Virus record (IMG/VR): IMGVR_UViG_3300032287_003534
Coordinates: 1-48,990 of that record
DNA length: 48,990 bases
Reading direction: 5' to 3' (one strand)
DNA from: a virus
The notes under the pieces are model-generated. The model was not told the origin of the DNA and made no database searches. It was given only the letters and a program-made list of their open reading frames with translations. Shown piece by piece: positions 5,278 to 48,454 of this stretch (within the stretch, counting starts at the first letter, position 1; each line of letters starts with the position of its first letter). The position numbers were made by a program, and so were the translations under genes.

Positions 5278-5306
5278 TTGCACCCACCGCGCGACCGTGC
5301 TACCCT
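5278..5306 (+). promoter_or_regulatory. Major capsid promoter
   Basis: TTGCAC (5278-5283), 17 bp, TACCCT (5301-5306). This is one of the best plus-strand matches to the genome-wide promoter family. It starts right after the scaffold stop and gives a leader of about 80 nt to the capsid gene, so capsid can be made in excess of scaffold and portal. Confidence 0.7.
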
Positions 5307-5340
5307 TGACACGAAGGCCCACGGTCGCGCCGTGTAACAA

Positions 5341-5392: not shown

Positions 5393-6310
5393 GTGGCCAA
5401 CGAGATCCTCGCCGCAAGCTCTGACTTCTTGGTTGCCTCTGTCCTTGAGATGGAGATCCTGACCAAGCTCTCCAGCCTGATCAACCTCCGCGGCAGCCCC
5501 GCCCTCGTCGACTTCTCGCCGATGGCCAGCCGCGGCAGCCTCGTCCTGGCGATCCCCCTCGCCGGCTGGGACAGCCTCGTGATGACCGCCCCCGGTGAGG
5601 CGACCGGCGTCAGCAACACCGCGCTCGACAGCGACCAGATCACGCTGACGATCGCCCGGCAGGCCATCCAGCTCCAGATCAGCGACGAGCTTCTGGTCAG
5701 CAGCATGGGCGGCGCGATGAACGTCGAGCGGCTCGCGCAGGCCGCGGCCAGCGCCTACATCAACCGCCACAACGACCTGACGGTCGGCCTCTTCGGCGGT
5801 GTCACCGCGTCGGTCGGCACCAGCGGCGCCGACCTGACCCTCGACGACGTGGTCGACGCGACCCAGACCCTGATGCGGGCCAACAACACCGACAGCCTCT
5901 ACGCGATGCTGCACGGCCAGCAGATGAGCGACCTCCAGAACAGCCTCCGCGGCGAGGGCGGCGCGCTCAGCTTCTCCGCCCCGACCGCTGAGATGATCGC
6001 CGCCAAGGGCAAGGGCTTCGCGGGCTCCTACCTCGGCGTCGACTTCTGGATCAACAACCGCGTCGCCACCGCCAACGCGGGCGCCGACCGGGCCGGCTGC
6101 ATGTGGTCGCGCGGCGCCTTCGGGTACGCCGAGGCCACCCACCCCCTGTCCAGCCTCCGCGGCAGTGTCAACCCGCAGGTCGTCTCGCCCGTGCTCATCG
6201 AGTTCGAGCGCGCCGGCACCAGCGGCCTCAACACCGTGATCGCCTCCGCCTTCCTGGGTGTGGCGATGGTCGAAGACGCCCGCGCGGTCAAGATCGTCAC
6301 CGACGCCTGA
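5393..6310 (+). CDS. Major capsid protein, HK97-fold
   Basis: A 305-residue protein with a GTG start and GAGGTG eight bases upstream. Placement after scaffold, size and composition (long Ala/Leu helix TLMRANNTDSLYAMLHG, then a beta-rich C-terminal half) fit an HK97-fold capsid subunit without a cleaved delta domain. Residues about 100-130 (QAIQLQISDELL ... LAQAAASAYINRHND) look like the spine-helix region. It has its own promoter (5278) and leader hairpin and is followed by two strong hairpins, consistent with high expression. The family is assigned from context and pattern; an alternative structural role is improbable. Confidence 0.85.
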   Translation: MANEILAASSDFLVASVLEMEILTKLSSLINLRGSPALVDFSPMASRGSLVLAIPLAGWDSLVMTAPGEATGVSNTALDSDQITLTIARQAIQLQISDELLVSSMGGAMNVERLAQAAASAYINRHNDLTVGLFGGVTASVGTSGADLTLDDVVDATQTLMRANNTDSLYAMLHGQQMSDLQNSLRGEGGALSFSAPTAEMIAAKGKGFAGSYLGVDFWINNRVATANAGADRAGCMWSRGAFGYAEATHPLSSLRGSVNPQVVSPVLIEFERAGTSGLNTVIASAFLGVAMVEDARAVKIVTDA

Positions 6311-24986: not shown

Positions 24987-25046
24987 AGCCTATGCGACCA
25001 CGTATGGACGTGCAATAGCCGCCGCACACTTTCAGCTAAGAAAGTT
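24987..25046 (-). promoter_or_regulatory. Tripartite early promoter, copy 1
   Basis: Read on the minus strand: ACTTTCTT (25045-25038), 18 bp, GCTATTGCAC with -35 TTGCAC (25015-25010), 17 bp, -10 TAGGCT (24992-24987). Predicted start near 24980. The leader contains a CCGGCGG/CCGCCGG hairpin with a CGCTGAGT loop before the ribosome site. The upstream box overlaps the last codons of the preceding gene. Confidence 0.75.
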
Positions 25047-28102: not shown

Positions 28103-28161
28103 ACTCTATCGGCTCCCGCTGTAGCGTGCAATAGCTCCTGCGCACATTCACCGCAGAAAGT
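28103..28161 (-). promoter_or_regulatory. Tripartite early promoter, copy 2
   Basis: ACTTTCTG (28161-28154), 18 bp, GCTATTGCAC (-35 at 28131-28126), 17 bp, TAGAGT (28108-28103). Predicted start near 28096. One mismatch in the upstream box. The leader has a GCGGC/GCCGC hairpin instead of the CGCTGAG-loop type. Confidence 0.7.
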
Positions 28162-29854: not shown

Positions 29855-29883
29855 AGCGTATCGCACGGGGCGGAGGGGTGCAA
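29855..29883 (-). promoter_or_regulatory. Early promoter without upstream box
   Basis: CTATTGCAC with -35 TTGCAC (29883-29878), 17 bp, -10 TACGCT (29860-29855). Start near 29848, leader about 20 nt. No ACTTTCTT lies upstream, so this copy should not respond to whatever reads that box. Confidence 0.7.
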
Positions 29884-31122: not shown

Positions 31123-31181
31123 AGCCTATAGGACCGGGCTACAGCGTGCAATAGCCGGCGCACACATTCTGCAAAGAAAGT
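31123..31181 (-). promoter_or_regulatory. Tripartite early promoter, copy 3
   Basis: ACTTTCTT (31181-31174), 18 bp, GCTATTGCAC (-35 at 31151-31146), 17 bp, TAGGCT (31128-31123). Start near 31116. The leader carries GGGCGC/GCGCCC around a TGAGACC loop, followed by CGGAGCCGACCATG. Confidence 0.75.
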
Positions 31182-36100: not shown

Positions 36101-36159
36101 AGCCTATGCGGTCGGCTGGCGACGTGCAATAGCGGCTGCGCAGATTGAGCGAAGAAAGT
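36101..36159 (-). promoter_or_regulatory. Tripartite early promoter, copy 5
   Basis: ACTTTCTT (36159-36152), 18 bp, GCTATTGCAC (-35 at 36129-36124), 17 bp, TAGGCT (36106-36101). Start near 36094. It diverges from the promoter at 36185, the two sharing about 200 bp. Confidence 0.75.
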
Positions 36160-38006: not shown

Positions 38007-38617
38007 TGAGCGCGCCGCAGGACGTCATGTCGATCCGTCTGGCCACGATGGAGGCGCGCGAGAGCGCACTGCGGGCGGCCCTGATCGATGCACAGACGCG
38101 CTTGCGGCGCGCCGGTGGTGGTCAGGGTTGGGATGCCGCGGCGTTCGCCGCCCTGTCCGCTGACGTCGCCGGCCTGCGCGCGGAGGCACAGGCGCAGCGG
38201 CAGCGGGCGGACGAGGCCGAAGAGCGCGCCGAGGACGCCGATAGGGCGCGGCGCGAGGCCGAAGCGGACGCTGCCGCGCTGCGCAGGCAGCTTGCCGCGG
38301 CGCTGCAGGGGGCGGGTGAGCGCACCGCCCCCGGGCTGCCGCAGGCGCCGAGGCCCGCGCGGCTGGCACCCGTCCGCGGCGTGGCCTCGCCGGCAGCCAC
38401 GCCGGAGGAGGCTGTGCTATGGGTCGTCTCGTCGGGGTCGCGCGTGCGGGCCCAGGCGGGCGGCAAGATCACGAAGGAACGTCTGCAAGCCGATGATGCC
38501 GCGGCGTTCCTTGAGGCGGTCTTCGCCGTGCGGGCGGCTGCGGAAGGGACCGCAGCGCGTGCGCAGGCACACAGCCGGGCGCTCGCCGAGATGGCGGCGC
38601 TGGCCCGGAAGGCTTGA
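38006..38617 (+). CDS. Coiled-coil protein downstream of the clamp
   Basis: A 203-residue protein. Residues about 10-110 are a long coiled coil (ARESALRAALIDAQTRLRRAGG, RQRADEAEERAEDADRARREAEADAAALRRQ), followed by a Pro/Ala linker and a small folded C-terminus (EEAVLWVVSSGSRVRAQAGGKITKERLQADDAAAFLEAVF). Overlap with the clamp stop by one base suggests a replication link. No family recognised. Confidence 0.55.
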   Translation: MSAPQDVMSIRLATMEARESALRAALIDAQTRLRRAGGGQGWDAAAFAALSADVAGLRAEAQAQRQRADEAEERAEDADRARREAEADAAALRRQLAAALQGAGERTAPGLPQAPRPARLAPVRGVASPAATPEEAVLWVVSSGSRVRAQAGGKITKERLQADDAAAFLEAVFAVRAAAEGTAARAQAHSRALAEMAALARKA

Positions 38618-38624
38618 GGTGGTG

Positions 38625-39092
38625 ATGCAAGAGTGGAAGCGTGAAGCGATGGACTGTGCGATGATCGTGCCCAAGGCACAGACACCGCTTGACCTTGACG
38701 GCAAGGGTGAGCGGCAAGACGGCACCGTCGATCAGGTCGTCTCGGTGCCTGTCGACGGGTGGGGGCTGTATGTCGACGGCATACGGACGGGGGTGCACGT
38801 CACGGACTACGACCCCTGCGCGCAGGCGGAGGTCTGTAGCCGCTCGGGCAAGCCGGACCCCAAAGGGCGGGTGCTGTCCGCATGGGGCGCACCCGGCTGG
38901 GGCGTGGTCAGCCTGTGGGGGCGGCGCCTTGACGCGGGCGCCGGAGAAGGGCGCGCGGAGATCGTCGAGGCGGGCCAGCGCCGGGCCCTGACGTGGTGGC
39001 CGCTGCTCTCGGAGCGGCTGCCGTGGCGCGAGGGGCGCGAGGCCACGCTGAGGGCAGCGCAGGCGGTTGGCGCCGAGGTCTGGTCGTGGTAG
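38625..39092 (+). CDS. Unknown protein, 155 aa
   Basis: ATG 38625 behind GAGGTGGTG. Beta-rich with GWGLYVDGIRTGVHVTDYDPC, GWGVVSLWGRRLDAG and a Trp-rich C-terminus (WWPLLSERLPWREG). The stop TAG is part of the -10 of the small RNA promoter at 39067, so transcription of the RNA array begins exactly where the operon ends. Function unknown. Confidence 0.55.
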   Translation: MQEWKREAMDCAMIVPKAQTPLDLDGKGERQDGTVDQVVSVPVDGWGLYVDGIRTGVHVTDYDPCAQAEVCSRSGKPDPKGRVLSAWGAPGWGVVSLWGRRLDAGAGEGRAEIVEAGQRRALTWWPLLSERLPWREGREATLRAAQAVGAEVWSW

Positions 39093-39095
39093 GCT
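39067..39095 (+). promoter_or_regulatory. Promoter of small RNA 1
   Basis: TTGGCG (39067-39072), 17 bp, TAGGCT (39090-39095). The -10 includes the stop codon of the upstream gene. Confidence 0.55.
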
Positions 39096-39101
39096 GGTAG
39101 C

Positions 39102-39154
39102 CTGCCGCTACACCCCGCACCTAGCCCCGCTGGACATCCGGCGGGGCTGTCTTT
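39102..39154 (+). ncRNA. Predicted small RNA 1
   Basis: About 53 nt from the inferred start to the terminator. A short unpaired 5' part (CTGCCGCTACACC...) is followed by a perfect intrinsic terminator. No ORF of sensible composition lies on either strand. Ends are inferred, not measured. Target unknown. Confidence 0.5.
39123..39154 (+). terminator. Intrinsic terminator of small RNA 1
   Basis: AGCCCCGCTGG pairs with CCGGCGGGGCT (11 bp, one T-G pair, ACAT loop), followed by GTCTTTT. Confidence 0.8.
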
Positions 39155-39178
39155 TGCGCCGCGCCATCGTCTGACCGC

Positions 39179-39207
39179 TTGACCGGCGGTGCGGCGTGGG
39201 GTAGGCT
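39179..39207 (+). promoter_or_regulatory. Promoter of small RNA 2
   Basis: TTGACC (39179-39184), 17 bp, TAGGCT (39202-39207). The strongest of the three by match to consensus, with GC before TTGAC as in the control region at 45242-45390. Confidence 0.65.
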
Positions 39208-39213
39208 GCCTGT

Positions 39214-39313
39214 GCGGCGCCCCACGTCGCGATGGTCGCTCTGGTCTGGTGATCCCTCCTCCTCCTGTCTGCAGTCCGCCCCCGCCGGTTTCGCGCCGGC
39301 GGGGGTCCGTCTT
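39214..39313 (+). ncRNA. Predicted small RNA 2, anti-Shine-Dalgarno type
   Basis: About 100 nt. It has a small GCGA-TGG-TCGC hairpin, a pyrimidine-rich stretch with CCTCCTCCTCCTGTCTGC, then a terminator. Bases 39262-39276 are complementary at 14 of 15 positions to the ribosome site of the mRNA for gene 41231-41473 and at 13 of 15 to that of gene 34949-35455. A trans-acting silencer of early translation is the favoured guess. Confidence 0.55.
39279..39313 (+). terminator. Intrinsic terminator of small RNA 2
   Basis: CCCCCGCCGG (39279-39288) pairs with CCGGCGGGGG (39296-39305), loop TTTCGCG, then TCCGTCTTT. The T-run overlaps the next promoter's -35. Confidence 0.75.
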
Positions 39314-39341
39314 TGCGGGTGTGGGATGCATGGGGTAGGCT
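39313..39341 (+). promoter_or_regulatory. Promoter of small RNA 3
   Basis: TTGCGG (39313-39318), 17 bp, TAGGCT (39336-39341). Confidence 0.6.
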
Positions 39342-39347
39342 GCGGGG

Positions 39348-39412
39348 CACCACGCCGGGGAGAGCATCCCCGGCCCGACGGCTGCCCGGGGCGACTCGGG
39401 CGGCCGTCTTCT
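39348..39412 (+). ncRNA. Predicted small RNA 3
   Basis: About 65 nt, almost fully structured: hairpin GCCGGGG/CCCCGGC with an AGAGCAT loop (39354-39374), then the terminator hairpin. The loop and closing pairs GG-AGAGC recall the AGAGCC loop of the start-codon hairpins of three late genes, so it might compete for the same binding protein. Confidence 0.5.
39377..39412 (+). terminator. Intrinsic terminator of small RNA 3
   Basis: GACGGCTGCCCG (39377-39388) pairs with CGGGCGGCCGTC (39397-39408) with one T-G pair, then TTCT. The U-run is short. Confidence 0.6.
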
Positions 39413-39442
39413 GTGGTGGGGGCGTGGTAGGCGGACGAAACA

Positions 39443-39485: not shown

Positions 39486-40787
39486 TTAGAACAAGCGGCC
39501 TTGGGTTGGGGGCACCCAAGCCGGGGGCCGGTTCAAGGTGACCCACTCCTCCTGCTGCTTGCTGAAAGTGCGCTTCTGCCCGACCCTCTCCCCGTCGATG
39601 CGCACCGCGTGCCACCCCTCGGCGACCAGCTCGGGGATCGCCTCCGCCTCGCTGATCGCGACCGTGGCCCCAGCGGCGGCCCAGCGGCGGGCGATGGTGA
39701 CCTGCTCGGCCCGCGGTAGCAGATTGGCGTACTGCGTGGTGTTTTCGTAAGGCCCATCCATGTAGGCCACGGTGCCGGGCGGGAGCGCGGGCGGGTCGAT
39801 GTCGCGGGCGTCGGGGTGGATGAGGGCGGGGACGTCGCCGGGCGCCGCATCAAACCGGGCGCCGATCTTGTCCGGCGTCTGCGGCACCCAGACGCCGCTC
39901 GCCCCGCGCCGATCTGTGAAGGCGCGCCCCAGGGCTACGACATCATTGAACGCTGCGAACGGCTCCCGGCCCGGTTGAGTCCACTTCTGGCCGATAGCCC
40001 ACCTCGCCACCTCCCTCGGGTCCACCTCGCGGGCGTCGGGCACCACCACCGCGGGCACGTCGCCGGGCGCTGCCTCCATGCCCTCGGCGGTGCGCTCCGG
40101 GGGCGAGCAGAACGCCGCGCCGCCGAAGGTGGCCCCGCCGTCGCCCGTGTTGATCCAGCGGCCTTCGGTGTCCGACCATGCGGTGTTGATCAGCCGGTTC
40201 GACGCCGTGATCTGCGCCCAGCGCGCCACCTCGCGCGGGTCGATGTGCCGGGCGTCGGGGGTGATGGTGGCCTCGGGCATGACCGGCGCGGCGGCCCACC
40301 TCGAGGCCAGCATGTCGGCGGTGTCGCCGTGCCCCTCGCCGCTACCGCTGCCCGTGCGGGCCTCCGCGAAGCCGGACTCGGGCGAGCCCCGTCGGTAAGC
40401 CCACTGGCCGGTGATGACGGCCCGCGCCACCTCCCCCGCGTCCACCTCCCCCTCCGGCAACTTCGGCGGCCCCTCCGCGCGCAGGCGCTCCCACAACGCG
40501 CGCGGGTCTTCGGCGGCCCACCCGCGGATGATGGCGGCGGCGGCGCGGGCGAGCGGGGCTGAGCGGTAGGCATGGAGGAGGAGCCGCACGCCGGGGTCGG
40601 GCTCGCACCACAGGTAGGCGGCGGCGCGCTGACCGGGGCGGAGGCCGAGGATGCGCAGGATGGCGTCGGCGTAGCCACTTTTCGAGCCCATCCGGCTGAC
40701 AGGGGGCTTGGCGCCGTCGCGGTGAAGCCGCAGACTGAGGGCGGCGGTGCCGGCGCAGAGTTCGACGAAGAGCGGGATCGGCGTCAC
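39486..40787 (-). CDS. DNA adenine methyltransferase-like protein with repeated insert
   Basis: A 433-residue protein. Motif I FVELCAGTA at 7-15 and MGSKSGYADAIL at 33-44 (SAM site) and a motif IV-like DGPY at 344-347 in VAYMDGPYENTTQYAN resemble D12-class N6-adenine methyltransferases. Unusual: canonical DPPY is DGPY. Also unusual is a long insert with four related units, EVDAGEVARA (114), HIDPREVARW (181), EVDPREVARW (254) and DIDPPALPPG (329), where the target-recognition region is expected. It ends in QGRLF, a possible clamp-binding motif. GTG start overlaps the upstream stop. Confidence 0.65.
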   Translation of the reverse strand: MTPIPLFVELCAGTAALSLRLHRDGAKPPVSRMGSKSGYADAILRILGLRPGQRAAAYLWCEPDPGVRLLLHAYRSAPLARAAAAIIRGWAAEDPRALWERLRAEGPPKLPEGEVDAGEVARAVITGQWAYRRGSPESGFAEARTGSGSGEGHGDTADMLASRWAAAPVMPEATITPDARHIDPREVARWAQITASNRLINTAWSDTEGRWINTGDGGATFGGAAFCSPPERTAEGMEAAPGDVPAVVVPDAREVDPREVARWAIGQKWTQPGREPFAAFNDVVALGRAFTDRRGASGVWVPQTPDKIGARFDAAPGDVPALIHPDARDIDPPALPPGTVAYMDGPYENTTQYANLLPRAEQVTIARRWAAAGATVAISEAEAIPELVAEGWHAVRIDGERVGQKRTFSKQQEEWVTLNRPPAWVPPTQGRLF

Positions 40788-42343: not shown

Positions 42344-42372
42344 AGGGTATCGCGGGCGGGCGAGGGGTGCAA
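42344..42372 (-). promoter_or_regulatory. Promoter for ssb-methyltransferase operon
   Basis: CTATTGCAC with -35 TTGCAC (42372-42367), 17 bp, TACCCT (42349-42344). Start near 42337. No ACTTTCTT box upstream; a strong terminator lies just before it. Confidence 0.7.
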
Positions 42373-45270: not shown

Positions 45271-45385
45271 GCGGGCGCCGCGGGGGGTGGCCGGGTGGTT
45301 GAGCGGCGCCGCTTGACCTTCGGTGCGCACGGGGGTAGCCTGTCAAGCGCGCCGCTCGGGATTGGCCTCCCGGTCAAGCGGCGCG
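45266..45385 (+). repeat. Four GTCAAGCG-type repeats in the divergent control region
   Basis: GTCAAGCGGGCGC (45266), GTCAAGCGCGCCG (45342) and GTCAAGCGGCGCG (45373) are direct copies; CGGCGCCGCTTGAC (45304-45317) is an inverted copy. Each contains TTGAC on one strand, so the repeats coincide with -35 elements. They look like operators for a regulator of the divergent primase and helicase operons. Confidence 0.55.
45313..45341 (+). promoter_or_regulatory. Promoter for primase-helicase operon
   Basis: GCTTGACC with -35 TTGACC (45313-45318), 17 bp, TAGCCT (45336-45341). Start near 45348, leader about 54 nt, ending in AAGGGGTAGCAATG. Confidence 0.7.
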
Positions 45386-45401: not shown

Positions 45402-46448
45402 ATGCAGCAAGATCCTTGGGATGCGGCGGGCCCGCATCCGGCGGACGACCCGCGCCCTGGGACGGGCGTCTGGGACGTGTGCGCCGGGTGGGTCCACAGT
45501 CGGTGGATGGTGCCACGTCGCTTGTACGGGTGGCAGTTGGTGGAGCGGTTGACGAAGCCGTTGATCGTCGAAGAGAAGACCGCAGCGCCGGTGTGGATAC
45601 CGGGGCGCCTGCGGCCGGACGAGGAGGGCAGGCTGCGCCGGTGCAAGGCGAACGTCGAGGCGCTCTCGATGCTGATCCTCGACTGCGATGACGGGACGCC
45701 GGTGGAGCGACTGCGGGCGATGGGTGATGGAGCGGCCGATGCGGTCGGCGGGGCGTACTCGCTGCTTCGCATCGGCCACACGTCGTTCTCGCACACACCG
45801 GCGAAGCCGAAGGCGCGCATCGTCTTCCCCCTGTCCGCACCGGTCGCGGCCGAGCGCTGGGATGCCGTGTGGCTGGCCGCGCAGCGGTGGGCGGCTTCGT
45901 GCGGCGTGGTGATTGACAAGGCCGCCAAAGACCCGTCGCGGTTGTGGTTCTCAGCGGCTGCGCCGCCGGACCGGGCGCACCTCTTCGAGTCGTGGGTCGC
46001 GGGCGGGACCTTGGCGGCGGCCGGGTGCGACGCACCGCAGGACGGGGCGCCGGCGCTGCTTGACCCGGCGTGGCTGGTCCGGTCGTTCCCTGCGCCGCCG
46101 GTGGAGCGCGCCAACAGGCCGATCACCTTGGCGCGGTTCGGCGCCGATGACGTGCCAGTGCACGAGCGCCGGGCGAAGCGCATGCACGGGCTCTTGGCGC
46201 ATCGGGTCGCGCACCTGCAGCAGATCCCGCCGGGCGGGGGGCAGGCGATGTCGTGCTTCGGCAACGGGCGGCTCGTCGGGCAGGCGACCGCAGCGGGCTT
46301 GGTGCCGGACCCGGATGCGTGGCTCTTGGCCTTGGTGGACGCGGGCATGGCTGCAGGCTTGCCCGAGAAGCGCACCGCCGACAACGTGCGCCGGGGCTAC
46401 GCTCTGGGGCTCACAGAACAGCTTGATCAAGGGGTGTCCGATGAGTGA
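45402..46448 (+). CDS. Primase, archaeo-eukaryotic type (putative)
   Basis: A 348-residue protein. LILDCDDGTP at about 90-99 supplies a D-x-D pair, followed by HTSFSHTPAKPKARIVFPLSAPVAAERWDAVW at about 126-157, a layout I associate with AEP-type primases of plasmids and phages. C-terminal helices include NGRLVGQATAAGLVPDPD and TADNVRRGYALG, which look like a primase C-terminal helical domain. With the VirE-type helicase overlapping by eight bases it forms a replication initiation pair beside the iteron origin. Catalytic His was not assigned with certainty. Confidence 0.65.
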   Translation: MQQDPWDAAGPHPADDPRPGTGVWDVCAGWVHSRWMVPRRLYGWQLVERLTKPLIVEEKTAAPVWIPGRLRPDEEGRLRRCKANVEALSMLILDCDDGTPVERLRAMGDGAADAVGGAYSLLRIGHTSFSHTPAKPKARIVFPLSAPVAAERWDAVWLAAQRWAASCGVVIDKAAKDPSRLWFSAAAPPDRAHLFESWVAGGTLAAAGCDAPQDGAPALLDPAWLVRSFPAPPVERANRPITLARFGADDVPVHERRAKRMHGLLAHRVAHLQQIPPGGGQAMSCFGNGRLVGQATAAGLVPDPDAWLLALVDAGMAAGLPEKRTADNVRRGYALGLTEQLDQGVSDE

Positions 46449-48425: not shown

Positions 48426-48454
48426 TTGCACCCCCGCGCCCCCTGCGCTACACT
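48426..48454 (+). promoter_or_regulatory. Promoter for gene 48553
   Basis: CTATTGCAC with -35 TTGCAC (48426-48431), 17 bp, TACACT (48449-48454). Start near 48461. It could also feed the late genes if the genome is circular. Confidence 0.7.

Follow-up and report, generated by a model that had tools for sequence, protein, structure and literature searches.

A phage array of promoter-hairpin units includes an RNA shared with bacterial loci of nuclease-type defence candidates

In type III toxin-antitoxin systems (ToxIN), a structured RNA gene lies beside an RNase-type gene, and phages carry pseudo-ToxI RNAs. RNA anti-CRISPRs (Racr) are encoded by phages and mimic the RNA of a host defence, while CcsR1-4 of Rhodobacter are adjacent hairpin sRNAs, homologous copies from one bacterial transcript. 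One RNA anti-CRISPR, rAcrVIA1, is a phage RNA that mimics the RNA of a defence system (PMC12948488). Phage sRNAs known so far occur singly, each antisense to a phage gene; OOP of lambda and sar of P22 are transcripts of about 70-77 nt made from their own promoter, and a review of such RNAs uses neither 'tandem' nor 'array' (PMC12197685).

In this study we focus on a gene-free gap in the window, the whole stretch of 48,990 nucleotides analysed (IMG/VR virus record IMGVR_UViG_3300032287_003534), which has no close relative among isolated phages by DNA and protein comparison. The gap, of 393 nt, separates ORF 38088-39092 on the plus strand from the convergent ORF 39486-40787 on the minus strand, and three promoters lie inside it. 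The features, by position in the window, are as follows.

38088..39092, plus strand: ORF of 334 aa, of no known family, with the clamp gene on one side and the array on the other
39067-39095, plus strand: promoter P1, TTGGCG-17-TAGGCT, the weakest of the three; its TAG doubles as the stop codon of ORF 38088-39092
39102..39154, plus strand: predicted RNA of unit 1, about 53 nt, MFE z-score -3.7
39122-39149, plus strand: hairpin T1, 12 pairs, then TCTTTT
39179-39207, plus strand: promoter P2, TTGACC-17-TAGGCT, closely like the promoter ahead of ORF 45402
39214..39313, plus strand: predicted RNA of unit 2, about 100 nt, MFE z-score -2.8
39278-39306, plus strand: hairpin T2, then CCGTCTTT
39313-39341, plus strand: promoter P3, TTGCGG-17-TAGGCT, its -35 overlapping the T tract of terminator 2
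39348..39413, plus strand: predicted RNA of unit 3 (type a), about 66 nt, MFE z-score -6.1
39377-39408, plus strand: hairpin T3, the terminator hairpin of unit 3, then TTCT
39464-39443, minus strand: terminator of the convergent operon, after the array
39486..40787, minus strand: convergent ORF, conserved in G001 and others
45313-45341, plus strand: promoter of the P2 class, CGCTTGACCnnCGGTGCG..GGGGTAGCCT, upstream of the primase-like ORF 45402; a similar one is found in G002

An earlier note on this DNA had placed three plus-strand promoters with an identical TAGGCT and 17-bp spacing at 39067, 39179 and 39313. These coordinates are exact and the arrangement is far above chance, as the window contains nine matches to TTG-N20-TAGNNT where shuffles give 0.46, and 300 shuffled versions of the region never reach the three copies of the array. 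ORF 38088-39092 uses the TAG of P1 as its stop codon, which weakens P1; the resemblance of P2 to the promoter of the primase-like ORF supports P2 as a real promoter of the window phage. The same note gave each promoter a hairpin terminator of its own: the hairpins, all GC-rich, are in place, but T2 and T3 have short U-tracts and only T1 passes the terminator scan. As in known phage sRNAs, a promoter and an intrinsic terminator bracket a short predicted non-coding transcript. The long stretch free of plus-strand genes that was said to follow the array also stands, the next likely gene on this strand starting at 45402; ORF 39486-40787 of the convergent operon, which the note named a methyltransferase operon, has neither a Pfam nor a PHROG match. 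Used as a query against viral contigs, ORF 38088-39092 found no match. No Rfam family reaches its gathering threshold in the gap region, permissive thresholds adding only the sub-threshold BjrC68 and sX12, and no CRISPR family reaches its cut-off there. Units 1 and 2 have no homologue in related genomes or plasmids, and together with P1 they are still weakly supported; the predicted RNA of unit 2 contains an unpaired stretch, CCUCCUCCUCCU.

The locus differs from each of the phage and bacterial precedents. Several units stand side by side here, unlike OOP and sar. CRISPR effectors are the targets of RNA anti-CRISPRs, whereas the units of the window are unrelated to these and several different ones are arrayed. 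The unpaired stretch of unit 2 is similar to a CCUCCUCCC-type motif of the CcsR RNAs, but the units of the window are unrelated to each other, have separate promoters and are borne by a phage.

The RNA of unit 3 is conserved and shows compensatory changes; it consists of two hairpins, one at 39354-39374 and the terminator hairpin (39377-39408), joined by a CC linker. Eight other phage copies were aligned with unit 3. Four of these came from phages that are otherwise unlike (L007, L013, L082 and L094) and were retrieved with a pattern in which the loop region of the hairpin and the second hairpin's 5' arm were preset, which leaves only the 3' arm and the variation within stems as independent evidence in them. 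Across the nine sequences 97% of paired cells are kept as pairs and seven pairs show double changes, more than in any of 500 shuffles, which supplies for unit 3 the hairpin covariation that had been called for. In helix 1, 19 type a sequences give 21 double-change cells, a count reached in 0 of 500 shuffles. A covariance model of the phage copies (R1) detects bacterial copies. Moreover, the best match in 383 kb to an independent model built from bacterial copies only (R3) is positions 39345-39417 of the window, with 49.7 bits and an E-value of 3.7e-12, and by this model unit 3 has the features of the type a family: a hairpin, a short linker and a CGACG terminator hairpin. A sigma70-type promoter lies directly upstream of type a in the window and in bacteria, and not at the copies in the 3' UTR of the ribonucleotide-reductase-like (RNR-like) gene described below. 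BjrC68 and sX12 of Rfam share the two-hairpin shape and were rejected as identities, their scores being far below the cut-offs: BjrC68, which aligns full length to one bacterial copy, gives 22.7 bits against a cut-off of 39 for type a, and sX12 gives 20.1 bits against 106 for unit 3. A second group of pattern matches (GGGUGAGCGGCCCGUCCCCGACGG) was set aside as apparently a different sequence. Type a also occurs just upstream of terminase-like genes in two otherwise unlike phages (L094 3097-3165 and L082 720-784), and in L130 (1680-1744; G015:C25), a contig of lower GC in its MAG, it directly follows a gene's stop codon.

Strong synteny with the window is found in G001, G002, G006, G009 and G010, then in L033, L037, L038 and L039, and in RFPL01000023, a phage contig within a Sphingomonadaceae MAG; several of the compared contigs are fragments. 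Where contigs extend far enough, the order is clamp, RNR-like gene, array and convergent operon, the RNR-like gene taking the place of ORF 38088-39092. Each related contig has one to three hairpin-terminator units at the matching site. Behind the reductase, G001, G009, G010 and RFPL01000023 have a type a unit, and G002, G006, L033, L037, L038 and L039 a second RNA, type c; later units vary from phage to phage while the site itself is kept. In the window, G001, G006, G009, L033 and L039, each later unit opens with TTG-N19/20-TA. These six phages have 13 promoter-like junctions, P1 included, all of them on the plus strand; shuffles give 1.4 on average and 5 at most. The 13 are not independent, because the contigs are related to each other. 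Like P3, most internal promoters of the relatives start in the T tract of the preceding terminator. No TTG-N19/20-TA element is found at the later units of G002 and G010. Internal units thus keep promoter-like elements in the six phages; first units in the relatives have no clear promoter. Type a in G001, G009, G010 and RFPL01000023 follows the RNR-like stop codon directly in this way, so it could be a 3'-UTR RNA there. As the relatives preserve the position and the layout rule while exchanging units, the locus behaves as a cassette array. The array of promoter, sRNA and terminator units first described from the window alone thus gains from a layout that recurs at the same site while its content turns over, and loses at P1, which lies in a gene end, and at units 1 and 2, with no homologue.

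In bacteria, type a is a stand-alone gene with promoter, RNA and its own terminator. The promoters read TTGACA-17-CATAAT in a Sulfuricystis plasmid, TTGATA-17-TATAAT in G104, TTGACA-16-TTAAAT in G118 and TTGACA-17-TTTAAT in a Thermus oshimai plasmid, with similar others. In G140, G112 and Thermus the RNA lies in loci of the Hma defence system, on the opposite strand, flanked by hmaA and the NYN gene HEC-09. HEC-09 is an NYN-domain protein (Pfam PF01936) and a candidate defence nuclease in PADLOC; the HEC and PDC names denote guilt-by-embedding predictions, most of them untested (PMC12988326). A search of 398 genomes of the phylum found five close HEC-09 orthologues, and type a adjoins all five and the Thermus gene, thus all six loci checked, against 0 of 15 remote NYN homologues, the score threshold dividing orthologues from remote homologues having been set after the list was seen. 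The association over the six loci has a Fisher p of 6e-5, or 0.007 when restricted to loci outside training; G104 and G118, both with type a beside HEC-09, are not part of the covariance model. Type a is absent from all 20 PDC-M04A loci. A link of type a to Hma itself was rejected, as Hma loci in which hmaA adjoins hmaB, without HEC-09, have no type a RNA. G118 has HEC-09 and type a with no Hma within the stretch read, and the Sulfuricystis plasmid retains type a between remnants of hmaA and hmaB, without HEC-09. The pairing with HEC-09, with or without Hma, and the absence from Hma loci that lack HEC-09 indicate that type a belongs with HEC-09 and not with Hma. A bacterial array of type a RNA was also seen in L136 (G017:C143), with three copies, two in direct tandem, beside HEC-09 and repeated C-terminal fragments of hmaA.

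Type c lies at the three closest members of PDC-M04A (G164, G281 and G370), 3' of the operon of this DUF3800 gene and in the opposite orientation, and at none of the 17 others (Fisher p 9e-4, or 0.006 restricted to loci outside training). It is also found alone in two chromosomes, where its neighbours are kdp-like and ccm-like genes and DUF3800 is missing, and in one prophage-like locus. In otherwise unlike phages or prophages, type c (CUCAUCCGCCAnGCGCGGAAGGAGnnACGAGGCCG) occurs in L032, L040, L041, L052 and L141, in the last upstream of a terminase-like gene. No HEC-09, Hma or PDC-M04A protein is encoded in the phage contigs. The HEC-09 and PDC-M04A loci carry these bacterial RNAs; PADLOC models the systems as proteins, and the literature consulted on the PADLOC candidates does not mention an RNA gene linked to either.

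The likeness to ToxIN would lie in a small RNA gene beside a nuclease-like gene, together with phage copies of the RNA that would neutralise the nuclease. However, ToxI consists of tandem repeats upstream of and codirectional with a ToxN-type toxin, whereas bacterial type a and type c are mostly single two-hairpin units, divergent from NYN or convergent with the DUF3800 operon.

Our preferred explanation, held with slightly less than even confidence, is that the gap holds RNA genes in a small array, each transcribed on its own, and that phage RNA mimics keep host nucleases off. Each unit would have its sigma70-type promoter, followed by a short structured leader and then an intrinsic terminator. 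The NYN (HEC-09) and DUF3800 (PDC-M04A) proteins are probably nuclease-like, and in the bacterial pair the neighbouring RNA would restrain or gate the nuclease; an infecting phage that makes copies of the RNA from its own promoters would leave the nuclease off, and each unit of the array may answer a different host system. We propose this disarming of RNA-regulated nucleases as the function of the mimics; linkage to NYN or DUF3800 genes does not in itself show that an RNA inhibits anything. More tentatively, and as a joint reading well short of even, the array would be a modular anti-defence device of promoter-driven mimics of RNAs that gate host nucleases, type a serving against the HEC-09 NYN protein and type c against the PDC-M04A DUF3800 protein, with cassettes gained and lost at a single site between the convergent operons as the defences of the host shift.

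The main rival takes the units as reinforced terminators that seal the boundary with the convergent operon, their RNAs having no role in trans; the clamp/RNR mRNA would have its 3' end protected by the hairpin ahead of each terminator, with promoters that are incidental or only re-seed transcription. It draws on the strong hairpin that ends every unit, on type a or c directly 3' of the RNR stop codon in G001, G002, G006, G009, G010 and RFPL01000023, and on type a right behind a gene in L013 and L130; promoterless type a and type c in the 3' UTR in several phages also fit a protected terminator. Yet the first hairpin, and a loop and linker conserved between a Thermus plasmid and a phage, are superfluous for a terminator, the bacterial copies at HEC-09 loci have good promoters and no codirectional upstream gene, and internal units keep promoter-like elements. 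We consider this account rather unlikely.

Ordinary sRNAs, acting in trans or as antisense on phage or host mRNAs, with the defence link a product of exchange between mobile elements, seem less probable still. OOP and sar show that phages make such RNAs (PMC12197685), the unpaired CCUCCUCCUCCU of unit 2 could pair with Shine-Dalgarno sequences, and some bacterial type c copies lie outside defence loci, but type a tracks HEC-09 specifically and not mobile elements or Hma in general. Chance hairpins and promoter matches, or an unannotated small protein gene, have very little to recommend them: strong hairpins are common at the G+C content of the gap, about 73%, and several ORFs cross the region, but the shuffle tests, the covariation of unit 3 and a homology to distant bacteria at E 4e-12 speak against chance, and the gap carries no coding signature of a small protein.

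Two structured RNA families outside Rfam, type a and type c, are common to phages and bacteria, and a phage locus swaps small RNA genes as cassettes. If the modular anti-defence reading is true, HEC-09 and part of PDC-M04A would be RNA-regulated nuclease systems whose RNA component has gone unrecognised, and phages of the window's group may possess an exchangeable set of small RNAs directed against host defences. As both families are tied to nuclease-type defence candidates, the control of HEC-09 and PDC-M04A and its countering by phage RNA are directly testable.

Other promoters and leaders were seen in the window. A minus-strand family, TTGCAC-17-TAGRnT with a shared cta before the -35, lies at 24987-25015, 28103-28131, 31123-31151 and 36101-36129, and its transcripts begin with a GTGTGTC-like sequence; in relatives TTGACC or TTGCAA/TTGCAT stands at this place in the frame, as though each phage had its own -35. 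A second class, ctaTTGCAC-17-TACnCT, is found at 29855-29883 and 42344-42372 on the minus strand and at 48426-48454 on the plus strand. Finally, at 5278-5340 on the plus strand, and also at 5291 in G001, a promoter and a conserved leader hairpin (GGCCCACGGTCGCnCCGTGTA) precede a conserved gene of 305 aa at 5393.
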